This document shows positions 20,232 through 57,448 of a stretch of DNA of 64,000 nucleotides, in pieces. The position numbers and the translations under genes were made by a program. Position 1 is the first letter of the stretch; each line of letters opens with the position of its first letter. A model generated the notes under the pieces. It was not told the DNA's origin. It was given only the letters and a program-made list of their open reading frames with translations, and did no database searches. The stretch lies in the NCBI GenBank assembly GCA_026393975.1, contig JAPKZD010000009.1, positions 186,001 through 250,000 of the forward strand, read 5' to 3'. This DNA is from Candidatus Aminicenantota bacterium (lineage in GTDB: Bacteria; Acidobacteriota; Aminicenantia; Aminicenantales; Saccharicenantaceae).

Positions 20232-22328
20232 CTACTTCCTGCACCGGTCCATGAGCGATTCGATGTCCCGTCGTTCTTCCTCGGTGATGGCGGTCCCTTT
20301 GATGGACAGATACTTCCGGCAGAAGGCGAGGGCCCGCGTCTTGTCCCCCGTCTCGAGATAGGCCAGGGCCAGATTGTAGACGGGCAGGTCGTAATTCGGG
20401 TCGAGGGCGACGGCCTTTTCCCAGCAGGCGATCGCCTCGGCCGTGTTCCCCGCGATCTTCCAGGCCCCGCCCAGTCCGTTATGGACGGAGGCCAAGGAGG
20501 GGTCGGTGGCGATGGCCGCCTCGAAATAGCCGAAAGATTTTTTCACATACTCCGGGTTCCTCGTTTTCAAGCCCCAGGCGACATAAAAATTGCCGAGGTT
20601 GCCGTTGATGATCGCGTCCCCCGGCGCCAGGCCGAGGGCGGCGTTGAAGTGCTCGAGCGCCTTCTCGAAGTCCCCTTTCTTCCAGTAGGCCTCTCCGAGA
20701 GAACCCCGGACGTTCGCGTCATTGTTGAAGAGAACGAGGGCTTGGTGGAGGACTTCGATCCCCCGGTCGAACTTCTGTCGCTCGACAAGGGCGATGCCGT
20801 ACGACGAGACCATCGTGAAGTCGCCGGGGTTGGCCCGAGCTCCCCGTTCGAGCGTGCCGAGGTGGGCATCCTTCCGCCCCTGGGCATAGTGAAGCTCGGC
20901 CAGCTGGGCATAAGCCCGGGTAAAATCCGGACGGGCTTTGATAAGGTCTTCCAGGAGGCGGACGCTCGCGTCCGGCTTGTTCTCTTTGGCCAATTGGCCG
21001 GCCAGCACGAGCTTCTGCTCGAAGGGCAGGAGCGTCTTGAGGTCGTCCGCGATGCCGTAGGTCTTCTTGGGGGGAACGGCCGGCGCGGAGGTGTAACCTA
21101 GGCTCCGGAGCCGTTCCTCCGTCTCCCGGTCGGTTCTCCGGACGGCCTGAGCCCCGGGCGGAGCGGCGTCGCGCGCCATCTTCCCCTCAAGGATTTTCTT
21201 GTAGGAAGCGATGTCCGTTCTTGAGGCCAGGTTTGTCGCCTCATTGAAGTCGTTCTGGAGGTCATAAAGCTCCGGGATGGGCGAATCGATATACTTCTTG
21301 CCGCCATCGATCAACCCCCGCAAGGGGGCAGCCCCGCGGTGGAGATATCCTTCCAGGGCCTCGAAATAAATGGGCTGGGCTTCCCGAGTTTTGCCTTCGA
21401 GCAGCGGCCGGAGGGTTCGGCCGCTAAGGGAGGGGGGCGTCTTGAGGCCGAGGAGATCGCAGACCGACGGGAAGATGTCCACATGGCTGACGTAGTCCTT
21501 GACCCGCAAAGCCGTCATGCCTGGGGCGGCGACGATGAGCGGGACCCAGATCGTCGCATTATAGGCGAAGTAGCTGTGCGTCATTTCCCCGTGCTCGCCC
21601 AGGGATTCGCCGTGGTCGCTGGTCATAATGAAGAGCGTCCGGCCCGTCTCGCCCTTCGCGTCGATCGCGCGTAAGAGTTTTCCGAGCATCTCGTCGACGT
21701 AGGCCACTTCACCGGAATAGAGATCGTCCGCGAAACGGGTCGCATAGGGCTCGGGCGGCGCGTAGGGGGCGTGAGGGTCGAAGAGATGGATCCAGAGGAA
21801 CCATCGGCCGTGTTGCGCGGCCAACCAGCCAAGGGCGGCGGCCACCGTATTTTCGGCCCGCCGCTCGGGGTAGTCGAGCATGGTGGCGGGCCGGGCCGGG
21901 TACTTGTCATCGTAGACGTCAAATCCTTCATTCAATCCGAACCGGGAGTCCAAGGAAAACGCGCTGACAAAGGCCCCTGTCGCGTAGCCGGCGGCCTTGA
22001 GCGTCTTGGCCAAATTCGGAAATCCCTGGGGCACGATGCCTATTCCGTTGTCATCGACGCCGTGGGCCAGAGAGGTCACGCCTAGGAGGATGTTCGTGTG
22101 GGACGGGAGGGTCAACGGGGCGTGGGCGAAGGCCCGCTCGAACAGCGCGCCTCTCGCGGCCAGGCTGTCGATCTGGGGCGTCCGGAGATATTTCGGGCTG
22201 TAGCAGCTCAGCCGATCCGGCCTGAGGGTATCGACCGTGATGAGGAGGAGGTTGAGGTCCGCGGCCCGGGCCGAGGCCGCGCCCAGGAGAATGAGCAAGC
22301 CCAGGAGGACCGCCCTAGAATGCCTCAT
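20232..22328 (-). CDS. sulfatase/alkaline-phosphatase-superfamily protein with TPR domain
   Basis: 698 residues: signal peptide (LLGLLILLGAASARA), sulfatase fold (residues ~25-390) and 6-7 TPR repeats (residues ~430-690; e.g. AYWKKGDFEKALEHFNAALGLAPGD). Metal-site motifs TVDTLRPDRLSC, HLFDPHAPY and TSDHGESLGEHG are present. At the nucleophile position the CxPSR of formylglycine sulfatases is replaced by Thr73 (LTLPSHTN), so it may act as a phospho- or sulfo-transferase/hydrolase without formylglycine, or not need it. Such sulfatase-TPR fusions recur in Acidobacteriota. Its transcript appears leaderless. Confidence 0.85.
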   Translation of the reverse strand: MRHSRAVLLGLLILLGAASARAADLNLLLITVDTLRPDRLSCYSPKYLRTPQIDSLAARGALFERAFAHAPLTLPSHTNILLGVTSLAHGVDDNGIGIVPQGFPNLAKTLKAAGYATGAFVSAFSLDSRFGLNEGFDVYDDKYPARPATMLDYPERRAENTVAAALGWLAAQHGRWFLWIHLFDPHAPYAPPEPYATRFADDLYSGEVAYVDEMLGKLLRAIDAKGETGRTLFIMTSDHGESLGEHGEMTHSYFAYNATIWVPLIVAAPGMTALRVKDYVSHVDIFPSVCDLLGLKTPPSLSGRTLRPLLEGKTREAQPIYFEALEGYLHRGAAPLRGLIDGGKKYIDSPIPELYDLQNDFNEATNLASRTDIASYKKILEGKMARDAAPPGAQAVRRTDRETEERLRSLGYTSAPAVPPKKTYGIADDLKTLLPFEQKLVLAGQLAKENKPDASVRLLEDLIKARPDFTRAYAQLAELHYAQGRKDAHLGTLERGARANPGDFTMVSSYGIALVERQKFDRGIEVLHQALVLFNNDANVRGSLGEAYWKKGDFEKALEHFNAALGLAPGDAIINGNLGNFYVAWGLKTRNPEYVKKSFGYFEAAIATDPSLASVHNGLGGAWKIAGNTAEAIACWEKAVALDPNYDLPVYNLALAYLETGDKTRALAFCRKYLSIKGTAITEEERRDIESLMDRCRK

Positions 22329-22334
22329 GCCGCC

Positions 22335-22340
22335 ATTATA
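22335..22340 (-). promoter_or_regulatory. extended -10 promoter of the sulfatase-TPR gene (leaderless)
   Basis: Minus-strand TGC-TATAAT with TATAAT at 22340-22335, followed by 6 bases and then ATG 22328, so transcription should start on the A of ATG. The extended TGn element offsets a poor -35 (AGTGAT). No ribosome site is present. Confidence 0.7.
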
Positions 22341-22358
22341 GCATAGCGATAATCCCTA

Positions 22359-25007
22359 TCACTCCCCGGCTTCTTCGATCATCCGGACCTCGCTCCAGGT
22401 TCCGTCGCTCTCGACGCGCAGGGTCTTGATTTCGAAGGACCGGAAGTCCAGTGATATGATTTTTATTGGGCGCGCAACTCGTAGCGCGGCCCGCGTTTTT
22501 CTTCCCACAGCTTCTTGAAGCCGGACGATGAGGGCCTCGCCGTCCCATGAGCGCTTGCAGGCGAGGAGACGGATGGAGGCCGGCGCTAGGGTAATCAGCG
22601 ACTCGACCGATGGGGCCTTCCCGGAATCATAAGGCAGATGGGCGTAGGCCAAAGGGGGCGCGGCCAAGTGGTCGGCCAGGCCCGGCATCATCGCCTTGAT
22701 CACTGCGGGACTGCCGGCGGTGACGAGGATGCGGAACTCGTGGACGCCGATGTCGGCGAACTTCCAAGCCGGAGGGCATGTCCCTCCGGTACGTGTCCCC
22801 GCGGCGGACGCCGAGCGTTCGAGGTCGAACCCCTGTTCATGACAGTAAGCCGAACTCCGGAGGACGGACAGCCGCAACTCGCCGTCCCGAAAATCAAGGC
22901 CGTGCTGGCCGCCCGACGCGACCCCCACGGCCGCGGCCTTCCTGCCGGACTTCCCTTCAATGACGAGCCAGCGTCCGTGGACGTGCTCCTCCCCGTCGGC
23001 CGGACGGCGGATGGCGCCTCCGGGAACCTCGCAGAAGAGGCCGGCCGCGGTCAGGGCCGTCGGCACGCACAGCTTCAGCCGCCGCCGTTCCTCATTCCAA
23101 ACGACGCGGAGCCGGAATTCGAGGACAGGCCAGCGCGGATAGGATACGGCGTCCATGACGACGCGGCTGTTCCGGTAGACGAGGATCGAGCGCGTCACCG
23201 TCCTGATGGGGCCCTGCTCGATGACGGAGGGACGGCCGGCCGGCCGGAACCGTCCGGCGATTTTCCGGTAGCTGCCGCAGCCCGTGCCCCACGAATCCGC
23301 CGTATCCTCGACGACGAGCGGTTCGAGGAGCGGGCCGGCAAGAACCTCCCCGGCGCCACCCGCCTTGAGCGACGTGACGAGGCCGGTCTTACGGTCGACG
23401 CGATGGACAAGCGCGGCCGGTCCGGGGACATGTACCGAAGGGTCATGTCCCCTCTCTGGTTTCTCCTTCTTTCCTTCCGGCACTTCGAACGCTTTGATGA
23501 AGTACCGCGAAACACCGACGCCCGGCAAGTCGTCGATGAAGCTCACGCGGCGGCGCCAGTCGTTGAACGGCAGGAGCGCTTCAGGCTGCTCTTCCTGGCA
23601 GACGACCTCCCGGCCGTCGGCCCGGAAGAGACGCAGGCGCCACTGGCCCTTCCAGAAAGGCCGGTAGTCGGCCATGCATTCGAACTCGACGGGGGCGCGG
23701 CGGAGGGACGGGTTGGCGTTGAAGACGGTGACGGGGAGAGCGGGGTTCGCGACGCTCCCTCTGTTCCATGACGCCGCGGCCCGGAGCGCAACCGACCGCG
23801 ACACGTCCTCGGCCCGGCCGTACAGGTCGAGGGCGTCCCGCTCGGCCGGCTCGACGCAGGAGCCCGTGAGGATGTCGTGGAAGTCGTTTAAATTGTGCAT
23901 GTTCCAGGCTTCTCCGAGCTCGGTCTCGGGGAAATCCGCCCCGGCGAGCCACCAGGAAGCGGCAGCGACGGCTTCGGCCTGGACGAGTCGCCCGAGGCTC
24001 ACGACGGCCCGCCGCTTGACCCGGGAGAGGGAGGTGTAGCATCCGGTGAAGCAGCGTTGCAGGTCGCCTTCGAAAACGGGCGCGGCAGCCGCAGCGTCCT
24101 TCACCGCTTCGAAGAACCTGTCGGGCGAGCTGTGGACGACTCTGACCCGCGTTTCGCCGGCGATGAAGGCGTCGATCGTTCTGAGGTCGCGGCGCGTCGC
24201 CCCGCCGCCGTGGTTGCCCAGGCCCCAGAACACGGACACGTCGCGGCCGAGCTCCAGGGCGAGCGCCACGCCTGCCCGCAGCCTGTCCTCGATGTTGTCC
24301 CGTTCGGTGTGGTAGAGCCCGACGGCGATCCGGTAGGCCGGGATCGTCGTGCCGTCGACGCCGCGCCAGCGGTAGAGATCGGCGGGCAAGGCCAACTCGG
24401 AAGCTTGGGGCCGCATGTGGATGTACATTTCGTAGCCGGCGAGCTTCAGGATCTGGGGCAAGCCGCCGCTGTGTCCGAACGAATCGAAGTTGTAGGCGAC
24501 GCCGGGCGAGACGCCGAATCTCTCCCGGAAATACCTCCGCCCTTCGGCGATCGTCCGGACGAGCGACTCGGTCCCCGGCAGGTTGACGTCGGGCTGGATG
24601 AACCAGCCGCCCGCGACGGCCCAGCGGCCGGCCCGGACGTGGCGGAGGATAGCTTCGAACAGCGCCGGGTCGAGCTGTTCAGTCCATTGGTAGAGGACGG
24701 CCTCGTTGTGACAGAAGACGAGGTCCCGGTGCTCGTCGAGGATATCGACGGCGTTGCGGAACGTCGCCAGGGCTTCCGAGGCCCCTTCTTCCCAACGCCA
24801 CTGCCAGACCGGGTCGAGGTGGGCGGTACAAATCAGGTGGACCGTCGGTATAGCACGGAGGCCGCCGCGGCGCTCTCCGGGGACATGTACCGGAGGTACA
24901 TGTCCCCCTTCTTCCTGCCAGCGTCCTTTCTTGCGGCCCTCTTCTCGGGGACATGTACCGGAGGTACGTGTCCCCTTTCTTCCTTCGGGCTGCTTTTTCC
25001 GGCTCAT
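22359..25007 (-). CDS. GH38 alpha-mannosidase with four embedded palindromes
   Basis: 882 residues, zinc-dependent retaining alpha-mannosidase. Zinc ligands are in TAHLDPVW (His63, Asp65); the nucleophile is Asp175 in YNFDSFGHSGG; NLNDFHDILTGS holds a further zinc His. A beta-sandwich C-terminal half follows. The start overlaps the symporter stop (ATGA), which couples mannose release to uptake. Oddity: residues ~11-21, ~34-43, ~519-528 and ~736-746 are translations of GGGGACATGTACC-type palindromes (peptides GTRTSGTCP, GHVPPVHVPG, GHDPSVHVPG, GTRTGGTCP). All four keep the frame open and lie outside catalytic motifs. The N-terminal ~50 residues before TVHLICTAHLD are not part of the family. 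Confidence 0.9.
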   Translation of the reverse strand: MSRKKQPEGRKGTRTSGTCPREEGRKKGRWQEEGGHVPPVHVPGERRGGLRAIPTVHLICTAHLDPVWQWRWEEGASEALATFRNAVDILDEHRDLVFCHNEAVLYQWTEQLDPALFEAILRHVRAGRWAVAGGWFIQPDVNLPGTESLVRTIAEGRRYFRERFGVSPGVAYNFDSFGHSGGLPQILKLAGYEMYIHMRPQASELALPADLYRWRGVDGTTIPAYRIAVGLYHTERDNIEDRLRAGVALALELGRDVSVFWGLGNHGGGATRRDLRTIDAFIAGETRVRVVHSSPDRFFEAVKDAAAAAPVFEGDLQRCFTGCYTSLSRVKRRAVVSLGRLVQAEAVAAASWWLAGADFPETELGEAWNMHNLNDFHDILTGSCVEPAERDALDLYGRAEDVSRSVALRAAASWNRGSVANPALPVTVFNANPSLRRAPVEFECMADYRPFWKGQWRLRLFRADGREVVCQEEQPEALLPFNDWRRRVSFIDDLPGVGVSRYFIKAFEVPEGKKEKPERGHDPSVHVPGPAALVHRVDRKTGLVTSLKAGGAGEVLAGPLLEPLVVEDTADSWGTGCGSYRKIAGRFRPAGRPSVIEQGPIRTVTRSILVYRNSRVVMDAVSYPRWPVLEFRLRVVWNEERRRLKLCVPTALTAAGLFCEVPGGAIRRPADGEEHVHGRWLVIEGKSGRKAAAVGVASGGQHGLDFRDGELRLSVLRSSAYCHEQGFDLERSASAAGTRTGGTCPPAWKFADIGVHEFRILVTAGSPAVIKAMMPGLADHLAAPPLAYAHLPYDSGKAPSVESLITLAPASIRLLACKRSWDGEALIVRLQEAVGRKTRAALRVARPIKIISLDFRSFEIKTLRVESDGTWSEVRMIEEAGE
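22771..22800 (-). repeat. REP-like palindrome R1 (inside GH38 gene, degenerate)
   Basis: One intact arm GGTACGTGTCCCC, the other decayed to GGGCATGTCCC. Translated in frame as GTRTGGTCP in the GH38 protein. Confidence 0.8.
23424..23452 (-). repeat. REP-like palindrome R2 (inside GH38 gene)
   Basis: 29 bp: GGGGACATGTACC, spacer GAA, GGGTCATGTCCCC; two arm mismatches. Read in frame as GHDPSVHVPG between GH38 domains. Confidence 0.85.
24879..24907 (-). repeat. REP-like palindrome R3 (inside GH38 gene, perfect)
   Basis: 29 bp with perfect 13-bp arms GGGGACATGTACC and GGTACATGTCCCC around GGA. Preceded by GGAAGAA on the minus strand. Encodes GHVPPVHVPG. Confidence 0.92.
24947..24975 (-). repeat. 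REP-like palindrome R4 (inside GH38 gene)
   Basis: 29 bp, arms GGGGACATGTACC and GGTACGTGTCCCC, one mismatch; preceded by GGAAGAA on the minus strand. Same orientation as R3, 68 bp away. Encodes GTRTSGTCP. Confidence 0.92.
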
Positions 25008-26761
25008 ACCTCGTCCTTGGCCGGCAGATTCTTATACCAGGTGAAATAAAGGATGACCGCGAGCCCGGCCGCGGCGCCGGCCCAAAGGCCGAGCTGCTTC
25101 CAGTTGCGCAGGAAAAGGTAGAACGGCAGGATGGCCAGCGTGAACTGGAAGACGGCCGTGACCAAGCCGTTGAGCATGTCGATCTTCGGCATCTTGTCCT
25201 TGGTCGGTACGAGCCCCCGCCGCACGCACTCCCGCCGCACCGGCCCCCAGAACCCGAACGGCCGGACCTTGGCGTAGAACTTGACCAGGACCTCCATGTC
25301 CGCGGGTTTGGTCAGGACCGCCGCGACGAGCGTCGCCGCGAGGCTCAAGCCCACGTCGAGGGCCAGGCTGGCCGAGGCGTGAAGGCCTTTCAGCAAAAGG
25401 AGCCGCAGCGTGATCAGCCCCGCCGAGGCGCCCATGCCCCAGACGAAGGCCTTGGCCCCGAACCGCCAGTAGTGCCAGCGCAGGGTCGCCGGCACCAGGA
25501 TGACCGTGACGACGACGAAGACCATGGTCTCCCAGGCCGTGACGATGTTCGTGAAGGACAGCGAGAAGACGAATCCGACGAGAACCGCGACGACCGAAGC
25601 CGCCTGCCCCAGCCGGACGAGCTTCTTCTGGGTCATGTTCTTGGCGAAGTAGCGCTTGATGAAATCGTTGATGACGACCGAGCTCGTCACATTGATCATG
25701 GCGCTGATCGTCGACATCAGGGCGGCCAGGAGCACGGCCATGAACAGCCCCCGCAATCCGACCGGCATTTTCAGGAGGACGAGAGGCATGATCTTCTCGG
25801 CGTCGAAGCCCGCCTGCGACCCCAGGTAGAAAATTCCCAGGACCATGAAGGCGCAGCCGAGGACCCAGCGCAGGTTGTAGCCGACCGTCCACATCCCGGC
25901 CGCGAGCTGGGCGTCGCGCGGCGTCCGCGTCGTCAGGAAGAACTGGAAGTCCCAGACGTTCGGCCCGGCGAGGAGCCGGAAGACCATCCAGAAAAAGCCC
26001 GCCGCCATGAGCGGGCCGAAGAGCCCGAAATGCTGGTAGGCCGGCGGCGTATCCGTCATAAAGCCCGTCCACAGCTTCCAGGTCGGGGCGAGCGAGAACC
26101 AGGCCGGGTCCTTGTGGATGAACGTCGTCGCCGCGGGCTGGGCGAAGACCATGACGCCCAGGATAACGGCGCCGGCGCCGATGAGGATCGTCTGGAAGAC
26201 GTCGGTCAGGATGACGCCGAAGAAGCCGCCCAGGGTCACGTAGACACCGACGACGGCGAGCACGATGAGCGTCGCCTCCCAGCGCGGCAGGGGCAGGAAC
26301 TCCTCGGCAAACTTCCCCGTCCCGACACTGATGAACATCAGGTTGCAGATCATCAGGACGAGGAGGAAGATCGACGACGCCAGGCGGGCCGCCTCGGCGT
26401 CCTTCGTCGCCCCGAAGCGCGTCTCGTTCCACTCGGCGAAGGTCATCACGCCGGACCGCCTGATGTACTTGGCCTGGAAAGCCATGTAGAACGAGATCAT
26501 GAACCAGCCCCAGAAGATGTGCGTCGCCCACATCGACTTGAGGCCGAGGTAGAAGATGAGCCCGATCATGGACATCGTCCCGCCGATGTCGATATAGCTC
26601 GAGCACCCGGACAGGCCCAGCATCCACCAGGGCACGTTCCGGTCGGCGAGGTAGAAGGAGTCGAGCTTTTTCGTCGCCCGCTTGCGGACGACGACACCGA
26701 TCATTACGACACCGAGGAGGTAGACGGCGATGATGACGAGGTCGACGGGATGGAGGTTCAT
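25004..26761 (-). CDS. sodium:solute symporter (SSS family)
   Basis: 585 residues with about 13-15 membrane helices; takes up a solute, probably a sugar, with sodium. Seen: FYLADRNVPWWMLGLSGCSSYIDIGGTM (the family's helix 1-2 region), YVTLGGFFGVILTDVFQ, and the sodium-site region LMSTISAMINVTSSVVINDF. The longer C-terminal section (KMPKIDMLNGLVTAVFQFTLAILPFY) is like those of large SSS members. ATG 26761 is preferred (AAAGGG upstream); the ATG at 26785 lies inside palindrome R5. Its stop overlaps the GH38 start by 4 bases. Confidence 0.9.
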   Translation of the reverse strand: MNLHPVDLVIIAVYLLGVVMIGVVVRKRATKKLDSFYLADRNVPWWMLGLSGCSSYIDIGGTMSMIGLIFYLGLKSMWATHIFWGWFMISFYMAFQAKYIRRSGVMTFAEWNETRFGATKDAEAARLASSIFLLVLMICNLMFISVGTGKFAEEFLPLPRWEATLIVLAVVGVYVTLGGFFGVILTDVFQTILIGAGAVILGVMVFAQPAATTFIHKDPAWFSLAPTWKLWTGFMTDTPPAYQHFGLFGPLMAAGFFWMVFRLLAGPNVWDFQFFLTTRTPRDAQLAAGMWTVGYNLRWVLGCAFMVLGIFYLGSQAGFDAEKIMPLVLLKMPVGLRGLFMAVLLAALMSTISAMINVTSSVVINDFIKRYFAKNMTQKKLVRLGQAASVVAVLVGFVFSLSFTNIVTAWETMVFVVVTVILVPATLRWHYWRFGAKAFVWGMGASAGLITLRLLLLKGLHASASLALDVGLSLAATLVAAVLTKPADMEVLVKFYAKVRPFGFWGPVRRECVRRGLVPTKDKMPKIDMLNGLVTAVFQFTLAILPFYLFLRNWKQLGLWAGAAAGLAVILYFTWYKNLPAKDEV

Positions 26762-26777
26762 GGGCGCCCTTTCAGCC

Positions 26778-26806
26778 GGGGACATGTCCCCCCGGTACGC
26801 GTCCCC
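26778..26806 (-). repeat. REP-like palindrome R5 (symporter leader)
   Basis: 29 bp, arms GGGGACATGTCCC and GGTACGCGTCCCC; sits 16 bases upstream of the symporter ATG, so it would be in the mRNA leader. Minus-strand orientation (GTGAAGA flank). Confidence 0.85.
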
Positions 26807-26892
26807 TCTTCACGCTTCACGTCAAAAAGATATATCATCTCGGGCCCGCCGGCGTCAACGACTCCGAGGTCGTAGAGCAGAATAAAAGGATC

Positions 26893-26921
26893 GGGGACAT
26901 GTACCTTTGGTATGTATCCCC
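26893..26921 (-). repeat. REP-like palindrome R6
   Basis: 29 bp, GGGGACATGTACC, spacer TTT, GGTATGTATCCCC. Intergenic between the symporter and the RAYT gene. Confidence 0.88.
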
Positions 26922-26984
26922 TCTCATGGAAATGTGAGATGATCCGCTGACTGGACGCGTCTTAAATAATCAGAGGGGAAAAGT

Positions 26985-27013
26985 GGGGACATGTACCTTA
27001 GGTACGTGTCCCC
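26985..27013 (-). repeat. REP-like palindrome R7 (left flank of RAYT)
   Basis: 29 bp, GGGGACATGTACC, spacer TTA, GGTACGTGTCCCC; ends 17 bases before the transposase ATG. AAGAAG precedes it on the minus strand, giving its orientation. Confidence 0.92.
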
Positions 27014-27030
27014 CTTCTTGTGAGGTTTCC

Positions 27031-27642
27031 ATGCCCCGAGCCGCACGTATCGTCATTCCAGGAATACCACATCACATCACCCAACGCGGGAATCGCCGCC
27101 AACGCGTCTTCTTTTCTGATGATGATAAGGCCCTCTATCTCCGTTTGTTCTCCAAATGGGCGGAGAAGTCGGGCCTCATCGTGTGGGCATACTGCCTCAT
27201 GGATAATCACGTCCACCACGTGGCTGTCCCCTTCAAAGAGGCCAGCCTCGCCGAAGCCCTCGGACAAACCCACAAAGCCTATACTAAGGTGATTAACGAA
27301 AGGGAAGGCTGGCGGGGATTCCTCTGGCAGGGCAGGTTCAGCTCGTATCCTATGGACGATCCATATCTTTACCGCGCCATGCGGTACGACGAGCTCAATC
27401 CCGTTCGGGCGAAGATCGTCGAGAACGCAATAGAATACAGTTGGTCAAGTGCCAGGGCCCACGTCCTTGGCGAAGCAAATCCTTTGCTTGCCCGACCCCC
27501 CCTCGGGATGAATGGTCAGGAATGGGCGATCTACCTCAGGGAGGGCCTGATCGAATCGGAGACAAGGCTGTTCAGGGATCATTCGGGAAGCACAACGCCA
27601 TTGGGCGATGAAGATTTTTTCAGAAGAATTGGGGTAATCTAG
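27031..27642 (+). CDS. REP-associated tyrosine transposase (RAYT, Y1_Tnp/IS200-like)
   Basis: 203-residue single-strand DNA transposase of the HuH/Y1 type. Seen: ARIVIPGIPHHITQRGNRRQRVFF, a catalytic HuH in MDNHVHHVAVP, LAEALGQTHKAYTKVINE, and the typical FLWQGRFSSYPMDDPYLYRAMRYDELNPVRA, with Tyr residues for strand attack. Members bind and cut REP palindromes. GAGG lies before ATG 27031; an upstream in-frame start at 26983 would translate palindrome R7. GGGGACATGTACC-type palindromes flank it in opposite orientation (R6/R7 on the left, R8/R9 on the right). Confidence 0.92.
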   Translation: MPRAARIVIPGIPHHITQRGNRRQRVFFSDDDKALYLRLFSKWAEKSGLIVWAYCLMDNHVHHVAVPFKEASLAEALGQTHKAYTKVINEREGWRGFLWQGRFSSYPMDDPYLYRAMRYDELNPVRAKIVENAIEYSWSSARAHVLGEANPLLARPPLGMNGQEWAIYLREGLIESETRLFRDHSGSTTPLGDEDFFRRIGVI

Positions 27643-27666
27643 TCCCCTTTGATGTTTTCAAGTTCA

Positions 27667-28089
27667 TCAGGAATTGCCGATGGTTTGAAGAGTCTCCCTG
27701 AATGGTTTAACGTACTCAAAAAACGTCGGATTATCCTTCGCTTGTTGCTCAGATTCAAGTTCTTTAACGATTTCCTTCAGCCGGTCCAAAACCTCAGTTT
27801 CATTATGCGTTTGCAGCTCCCGAGTAAGAATCCCCAAAAAAGCGCTCTCGGCTGCCATGCGGAGTGTACTATTGGATCCCGAAAGGCAAGGAATGATCGC
27901 ATTAAAGGCCATAAGATTATCGAAGGTCGCGTTCTTCAATATTTTCAAGCTTGAATGGATCATCGTTTCCAACGGGGAGCCAGGAGGAACTTGGGGCTTT
28001 CTCAACAAGCGCAGATAATCTTCATTTCGATGGAGCGTCGAAAAAAAGCGCTGGTCCAGAGGATCGGGCTTTCGCTTCCAAAATGCCAT
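27667..28089 (-). CDS. hypothetical helical protein
   Basis: 140 residues, all-helical by composition (ETMIHSSLKILKNATFDNLMAFNAIIPCLSGS... TETEVLDRLKEIVKELESE), without signal peptide or membrane segment. GGAGG lies 7 bases before ATG 28089, which supports expression. GC is low, as in the neighbouring transposase. It lies between the RAYT gene and palindromes R8/R9, so it may be cargo or an unrelated gene captured between repeats. Family not recognised. Confidence 0.6.
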   Translation of the reverse strand: MAFWKRKPDPLDQRFFSTLHRNEDYLRLLRKPQVPPGSPLETMIHSSLKILKNATFDNLMAFNAIIPCLSGSNSTLRMAAESAFLGILTRELQTHNETEVLDRLKEIVKELESEQQAKDNPTFFEYVKPFRETLQTIGNS

Positions 28090-28182
28090 GAGCCGCCTCC
28101 ACTCAAGGGCGATATATTCGAATTCCGAGAAGTTGAGTATTTTTCAAATCGAATGCTTATGTCAAGCACGAAATCAGAAGCA

Positions 28183-28211
28183 AGGGACGAGTAAGACAAG
28201 TACATATCCCC
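28183..28211 (+). repeat. REP-like palindrome R8 (decayed)
   Basis: One arm is close to consensus (AGTACATATCCCC), the other is degraded (AGGGACGAGTAAG). Plus-strand orientation by the AGAAGCA flank. From 28207 an 8-bp inverted repeat CCCCGGTT/AACCGGGG (ending 28244) follows. Confidence 0.55.
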
Positions 28212-28265
28212 GGTTTCCGATATGCCGTCTGCTGAGAACCGGGGAGAATAGAGACACGGAAGAAC

Positions 28266-28294
28266 GGGGACACGCACAAAGAGTACATGTCCCC
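28266..28294 (+). repeat. REP-like palindrome R9 (right flank)
   Basis: 29 bp, GGGGACACGCACA, spacer AAG, AGTACATGTCCCC; preceded by GGAAGAA on the plus strand, i.e. inverted relative to R1-R7. Lies in the ftsH upstream region. Confidence 0.75.
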
Positions 28295-28315
28295 TATTAA
28301 TCCGCCCCCCCCTGT

Positions 28316-28341
28316 TTTTCCGCCGGAAAACGTGCTAAAAT
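28316..28341 (+). promoter_or_regulatory. ftsH upstream dyad and -10
   Basis: Dyad TTTTCC-GCC-GGAAAA (28316-28330) followed by TAAAAT (28336-28341), 24 bases before the ftsH ATG. No strong -35; the dyad is a possible operator. Confidence 0.4.
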
Positions 28342-28365
28342 AGCCCCTAAAAAGGATTGATAATC

Positions 28366-30261
<1,896 letters not shown>

Positions 30262-57152: not shown

Positions 57153-57448
57153 TGAGGTACTTCTCCCGATTTCGGGGAACTCCCCTATTCGGCTTGGCGA
57201 AGGATATCACCCTTAGCCCCCCGGCCCCCCCGGGAACCAGACCCAGTCGTTCCTACGCCCGAAGGGCGACCCCCCTCCGGCGGGGAGCGGATTCTGAGAA
57301 GCGACCGACAGAAGTGCGGCGGAGCGGCACGAAGCCGCACTTCTGGGAAATATCTGAATTAGGTCCTGGATCTAACTTCTCGGCAAATTTGCTTGAGCCA
57401 TTCACTGCCCCGGGCAGCGTCCGTGGCGGGTGACTTCAGGGCGCGACT
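57153..57448. other. non-coding stretch between convergent operons
   Basis: Contains an imperfect hairpin CCCG/CGGG (57163-57185) just after the deacylase stop, a strong perfect hairpin (57309-57345) and C/G-rich tracts. No open frame with a ribosome site. No T-run follows either hairpin in either direction, so a rho-independent terminator is not supported. Confidence 0.5.
57309..57345. repeat. perfect 12-bp inverted repeat
   Basis: CAGAAGTGCGGC (57309-57320) and GCCGCACTTCTG (57334-57345) around a 13-base loop GGAGCGGCACGAA, itself with GCGGC/GCCGC-type pairing. Confidence 0.75.

Follow-up and report, generated by a model that had tools for sequence, protein, structure and literature searches.

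The window, by which we mean the whole 64,000-nt stretch analysed (contig JAPKZD010000009.1, positions 186,001 to 250,000), comes from the 2.95-Mb MAG of a Candidatus Aminicenantota bacterium (hereafter G000), whose nearest relatives are G009 (JAGNLW010000001) and G011 (MEYF01000131). Between a symporter gene and an FtsH gene it carries a module consisting of a transposase gene (TIRYT), a 140-aa ORF, and a set of 29-bp palindromes (Table 1). As the preliminary description had said of the stretch that holds the 140-residue gene, GC content is low here: 0.55 in the transposase gene and 0.46 in the 140-aa ORF plus spacer, versus 0.63 for the window. The 140-aa ORF matches no Pfam or NCBIfam family and has no relative in the related loci examined, and a search of positions 22000-30000 gave no Rfam match.

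Table 1. Features of the module and palindromes in its vicinity (window positions)
Feature	Position	Strand	Remarks
Degenerate palindrome	22772..22800	+	Within mannosidase-like ORF; in-frame length changes
Palindrome	23424..23452	.	Within mannosidase-like ORF; in-frame length changes between species
Dispersed palindrome, first of doublet	24879..24907	+	Mannosidase/symporter junction
Dispersed palindrome, second of doublet	24947..24975	+	Mannosidase/symporter junction; period 68
Palindrome variant	26778..26806	+	Overlaps symporter ORF start; common to G004 and G010
29-bp palindrome	26893..26921	+	Foot lost
29-bp palindrome GGGGACATGTACC-TTA-GGTACGTGTCCCC	26985..27013	+	17 nt before start codon; 13-bp stem
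Foot CTTCTT	27014..27019	+	Beyond GTG arm; family consensus GTTCTT
TIRYT, Y1/HUH single-strand transposase	27031..27642	+	203 aa; Pfam, alignment, fold
140-aa ORF	27667..28089	-	Within module
Half site	28199..28211	-	Degenerate arm
Foot AAGAAC of right-hand palindrome	28260..28265	-	Reverse complement of GTTCTT
Right-hand 29-bp palindrome	28266..28294	-	Orthologous copies in gene-less G004 and G010

The initial reading of the gene as a Y1-type transposase is borne out by a Pfam match, by the catalytic motifs, and by a fold like that of TnpAREP. The Pfam search finds a Y1_Tnp domain (E=1.4e-8), and the protein carries N59-H60-V-H62, WQ, and Y119 within YDELNP, so that the Y1 HUH domain, the catalytic Tyr, and the class 2 Y---NP motif are all present; H60, H62, Y119, N123, and P124 are invariant in an alignment with 34-35 relatives. 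The AlphaFold2 model (pLDDT 91.5) has its best fold match in E. coli TnpAREP bound to a REP hairpin (4er8; TM 0.74 by target), followed by the TnpA proteins of IS608 and ISDra2, and the sequence-profile ranking also puts 4er8 first and ISDra2 second. Judged by its motifs, the protein fits subclass 2.1 of Quentin et al. (2018; PMC6006769), which ranks second in size among the Y1 subclasses surveyed there. It shares with this subclass NHVH, WQ, and a Y..LNP-type motif, as well as the occurrence of low-identity paralogues in one genome: the gene is single copy in G000, and two further Y1 genes encode proteins 47% and 35% identical to its product. The second letter of YDELNP deviates from the subclass pattern Y[IV][EH]LNP, and relatives of the window protein have YVERNP or YVELNP. 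It is shorter than the subclass 2.1 median (203 aa versus 238). The C-terminal HTH domain of that subclass was not detected; none of the 35 family members has an HTH Pfam match at E<=1, and the model shows C-terminal helices at 162-170, 175-184, and 194-200.

The palindromes are strongly enriched in the window. The arm GGGGACATGTACC has 18 matches with at most two mismatches versus 1.04 expected, a number reached in 0 of 100 shuffles, and seven full palindromes of the form GGGGAC-(8-30)-GTCCCC are present versus 0.74 expected. The inverted 29-bp palindromes that the preliminary description had placed around the gene are found at 26893, 26985, and 28266; of its flanking copies, the one at 26893 has no foot and the one at 28199-28211 amounts to a half site only. 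Beyond the 140-aa ORF, at a distance of 624 nt from the stop codon, follows the right palindrome. The palindromes on the left (26893 and 26985) and the one on the right have opposite orientations, with their feet towards the gene; this assignment rests on two independent marks, the ATG/GTG asymmetry of the arms and the TTCTT/AAGAA flank. The palindromes adjoining the TIRYT gene in G009 show the same geometry.

Read from the outside in on the two strands, the arms differ as ACATG versus ACGTG in 97 of 117 copies from seven genomes (25/25 in G005 and 15/15 in G004), which produces a T.G wobble in the hairpin of one strand and an A.C mismatch in that of the other. The flank past the GTG arm is conserved in the 97 oriented copies (G46 T63 T66 C49 T66 T51 per cent), the opposite flank shows a weaker T-rich trend, and nothing is conserved farther out. 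From this flank profile, the element is therefore about 35 bp long, with the structure 5'-AAGAAC-hairpin, and each copy is oriented because of its one-sided GTTCTT foot and conserved T.G wobble. The three-nucleotide centre is variable, with 30 different trinucleotides among 95 copies. Seen from outside, the GTG arm is GGGGACAC, which fits the GGGGWSAS consensus; the other arm is GGGGACAT, whose last letter deviates. For the copy at 26985, the computed folding energies of the strands as single-stranded DNA are -12.2 and -10.7 kcal/mol (z -5.5 for the former). The exact motifs GGGGACATGTACC, GGTACATGTCCCC, and GGGGACACGTACC have no occurrence in the literature searched, where ten-letter pieces of them match unrelated texts only.

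The palindrome, which had been proposed to belong to a spreading repeat, is indeed dispersed beyond the window: a loose count gives about 36 copies of up to 42 bp across G000 (at most 6 arm mismatches, counting stretches around matches), and GGGGACA-(7-34)-TGTCCCC occurs 28 times versus 0 in the reversed control. The copies are clustered, with 8 of the 36 lying in the 5.6 kb that surround the gene (Poisson p ~1e-14), and about six close pairs are seen among them, two clearly inverted.

The symporter-FtsH interval differs widely among relatives. It spans only about 37-59 bp in G010, G012, and G001, holds 2.7 kb of other genes in G004 (symporter 99% identical), and contains TIRYT in G009 and G011. 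Simple vertical inheritance of the gene in G000, G009, and G011 is poorly supported, with fourfold-site differences of 0.57-0.59 versus about 0.18-0.45 for the neighbours, although its composition differs as well. Because G004 and G010 share the right palindrome without the gene, this palindrome is older than the gene at the site. At three other sites (C5:146000, C5:209943, and C17:184799), G004 lacks a palindrome-bearing segment of about 150-260 bp; two of these hold a different palindrome (GGGTCAAACCTACTTTTT...), of the type flanking a long TIRYT paralogue in G008. Palindrome length also differs between G000 and G004: 29 versus 52 bp at C17:342851, between nearly identical flanks, 40 versus 29 at C12:3820, and 29 versus 49 at C2:54114. 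The centre thus changes in place and the outer arms stay. The comparison of single copies between relatives, suggested in the preliminary description, shows several sites that are empty or hold another palindrome in G004. At none of the compared sites was a clean insertion of a single element seen opposite an intact empty site; the differences are segments of about 60-400 bp or a changed centre.

Inverted ends accompany the gene far beyond this genus. Among 88 homologues with both flanks available (Aminicenantes, Omnitrophota, Desulfuromonadales, WOR-3, Spirochaetes, and others), 59 have inverted repeats scoring at least 14 within 350 nt on both sides, as does none of 69 control intervals taken 1 kb farther away, and GGGACA is present in most of these ends. 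They are mostly non-palindromic in Omnitrophota and often palindromic in the Aminicenantes genera g1 and g4. The ends change along with the protein: mismatches out of 8 positions number 0.7 at protein identity above 80% and 4.1-4.9 at 40-65%, and the end sequence inside the core tracks protein divergence (Mantel rho 0.21, reached in 3 of 5000 permutations). Around ten long TIRYT paralogues of relatives, strong palindromes were found at one only, that of G008 (C227 locus, 182-242 and 1283-1343; type AAGAGGGGGTCAAACCTACTTTTT...).

The strict 29-bp family is limited to the genus plus a few other genomes. In G050, which belongs to another family, an internally deleted TIRYT remnant (C227:2033-2340, 84% identical over 49 aa) occurs along with 10 strict 29-bp palindromes; its congeners G036 and G047 have no strict palindromes. 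Horizontal transfer or contamination is possible in the case of G050. Shorter derivatives are also present in relatives. G020 (C7) and G024 (C91) have several copies of about 315-335 bp that retain both ends and the first ~42 codons and are mutually 90-93% identical; from their sequence, these are MITEs, that is, internally deleted TIRtrons with intact ends. In G026, 22-bp GGGGACAC palindromes form regular doublets (73-75-bp period) on contigs C6, C19, and C35, resembling REPINs. There is good comparative evidence that TIRtron-type units move, and the presence/absence differences between close relatives, together with the MITEs, indirectly support the view that the unit in the window is recent.

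We therefore interpret the segment as a TIRtron, with a TIRYT of subclass 2.1 type located between inverted palindromic ends that we propose as its cognate signal, and we assign this reading a probability of about 0.82. The family is new; its type, the TIRtron, is known and is a cousin of the REP elements. The preliminary description had spoken of a REPtron of an unknown family: the RAYT-like gene with cognate, inverted, dispersed palindromes and a REP-like foot stands, and the type, TIRtron/TIRYT, was already described in kind. In the available part of Di Nocera et al. (2013; PMC3733652), TIRtrons have inverted repeats with GGGGWSAS, some end families are self-complementary, moderately abundant, and arranged in dimers or clusters, and the acidobacterium K. 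versatilis has three TIRYT genes with different ends. Our unit agrees with these in having a Y1 RAYT-like gene between inverted GGGGWSAS-type repeats, and differs in its host lineage, Aminicenantes, and in its outer motif, here GGGGACA[TC]. The one-sided GTTCTT foot, the conserved wobble, the MITE derivatives, and the in-place change of the centre, all features of our family, have no match in that part of the article.

Over 79 genomes, kinship ignored, the median number of palindromes per Mb is 5.7 with a close TIRYT versus 1.2 in the others (p=0.006), and 27 of 44 genomes with a close TIRYT have at least 10 palindromes versus 7 of 35 others (Fisher p=2.6e-4, kinship ignored). There are exceptions on both sides: 16 genomes with a close TIRYT hold at most five palindromes, G005 has 97 palindromes and no detectable TIRYT, and the close relative G004 (96% complete) has 81, more than G000, with no TIRYT found even by profile search at E<=10. 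The preliminary description had held that the repeats should not be equally dense in RAYT-free relatives, and on this point G004 speaks against it, although the association over the 79 genomes is still positive. Palindromes in a genome are thus, as G004 shows, no proof of a resident enzyme. The explanation may be loss of the gene from G004 and G005 once the repeats had spread, a gap in the MAGs, which can lose repeat-flanked genes, or upkeep of the repeats by another factor. Di Nocera et al. (PMC3733652) likewise saw no obvious correlation between gene and repeat presence.

These palindrome-rich genomes speak for a different explanation, in which the palindromes are binding sites for a host protein or structural signals, spread and maintained without TIRYT, and the transposase gene landed among them. 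The greater age of the right palindrome would agree with this, and so would the doublets, which persist at the orthologous mannosidase/symporter junction (in G009 and G001) despite diverging flanks. Against it, homologues in several phyla come with their own inverted GGGACA ends, the ends diverge along with the protein, and the MITEs share their ends with the gene-bearing unit; we consider it improbable, although the strongest of the alternatives.

The stable hairpin, a GC-rich stem followed on one side by the pyrimidine tail TTCTT, and the intergenic position of many copies could also suggest intrinsic transcription terminators or mRNA-end hairpins. Yet the tail has few consecutive T, inverted ends of a transposase gene across phyla are not expected of terminators, and some copies lie at a gene start (26778) or within a conserved ORF. 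The latter (22359-25007, minus strand), which we take to be mannosidase-like from its sequence likeness to GH38 enzymes, contains the copies at 22772 and 23424, where the length differences of five relatives with respect to G000 (-6, 0, +12, -30, and +30 at 22772; +105, +27, -39, 0, and -3 at 23424) are all multiples of three. At the ORF start (24840-25010) some differences are not, as expected outside the real coding part. A terminator function for the family is thus quite unlikely.

Less likely still is a canonical REPtron, with a group 2/3 RAYT and GTAG-type REPs. It would have the same fold and inverted arrangement, and the window protein scores 54 bits against NCBIfam REP_Tyr_transpos, under the cut-off of 80; however, the foot is AAGAAN/GTTCTT, no GT[AG]G foot exists 5' of the hairpin in the flank profile of the 97 oriented copies, which speaks against a canonical GTAG REP, and YDELNP (YVERNP in relatives) with NHVH fits subclass 2.1 and not 2.2, 2.4, or 2.5 (Table 1 of PMC6006769). 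An ordinary IS200/IS605 insertion sequence is the least credible, since despite the Y1/HUH motifs and fold common to that family, and the closely similar internally deleted copies in relatives, the motif is Y---NP and not Y---Q, the gene is single copy with paralogues 47% and 35% identical and no near-identical copies, and its ends are palindromic and dispersed.

For the TIRtron, we propose the following mechanism. The single-stranded palindrome would fold into a 13-bp hairpin with a 3-nt loop, to which TIRYT may bind as TnpAREP binds REP. TnpAREP chooses the strand by the foot and by irregular features of the hairpin (PMC8266576), and by analogy the one-sided foot (5'-AAGAAN-hairpin) and the conserved wobble would let TIRYT discriminate between strands. 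Tyr119 would then cut and rejoin single strands: acting on the ends of the whole unit, TIRYT would move the unit; acting on pairs of ends with little or nothing in between, it would spread or remodel short palindromes (solo, doublets, and MITEs). Binding, cleavage, and strand choice are what we infer for the TIRYT type, and the product of this particular gene may be active. The parallels with the REPtron/TnpAREP/REPIN systems of E. coli and Pseudomonas are the fold (4er8), the foot with an imperfect hairpin, the inverted flanks, some doublets, and a dispersed repeat; the differences are the lack of a GTAG foot, the few copies, and the apparently small share of doublets in G000 (regular 73-75-bp doublets being found in G026).

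Quentin et al. reported no REP-like sequences near subclass 2.1 genes (PMC6006769), unlike what we see here. Ends of subclass 2.1-type genes can be recognised in several phyla; those of Aminicenantes have become dispersed, oriented palindromes. We raise tentatively, as something short of an even chance, that subclass 2.1 has a REP system of its own, independently evolved, with GGGGACA palindromes, an AAGAAN foot, and a fixed wobble, in which ever shorter MITEs arose from TIRtron ends (full unit, 320-bp deletion derivative, doublet, and 29-bp palindrome) and centres were rewritten in place. If true, this would reveal the route from transposon ends to REP-type repeats. The set of intermediate forms in relatives is unusually complete, and because full unit, deletion derivative, doublet, and solo palindrome coexist within one order, such an origin becomes testable; the palindromes also supply defined oligonucleotide substrates for a TIRYT assay, of which the literature consulted contains no example.

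The other Y1 genes of G000 also have palindromes nearby. Upstream of the paralogue on contig 4 lies a 40-bp palindrome whose arms are related, and the paralogue on contig 15 (314 aa; locus C15:194678-198127) lies between two 67-bp near-perfect palindromes (AAGAAGGTACCAGGTCTACGCAATGCC...; locus positions 941-1006 and 2022-2088) with AAGAA/TTCTT ends. The 67-bp palindrome has five copies in G000; a pair on contig 23, spaced 1.2 kb, encloses an unrelated ORF. As the neighbouring palindromes differ, each of the three Y1 genes of G000 has a palindrome type of its own beside it. At 57278-57358 the window also holds another interspersed repeat, about 82 bp long and containing an inner hairpin (TTCAGATATTTCCCAGAAGTGCGGC...GCCGCACTTCT...). 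It lies 1-24 nt from six palindromes of G000 (C3:36380, C3:36771, C5:146000, C5:209943, C15:189106, and C17:342851), like a composite mosaic element, and a stretch similar to it matches many places in G004.
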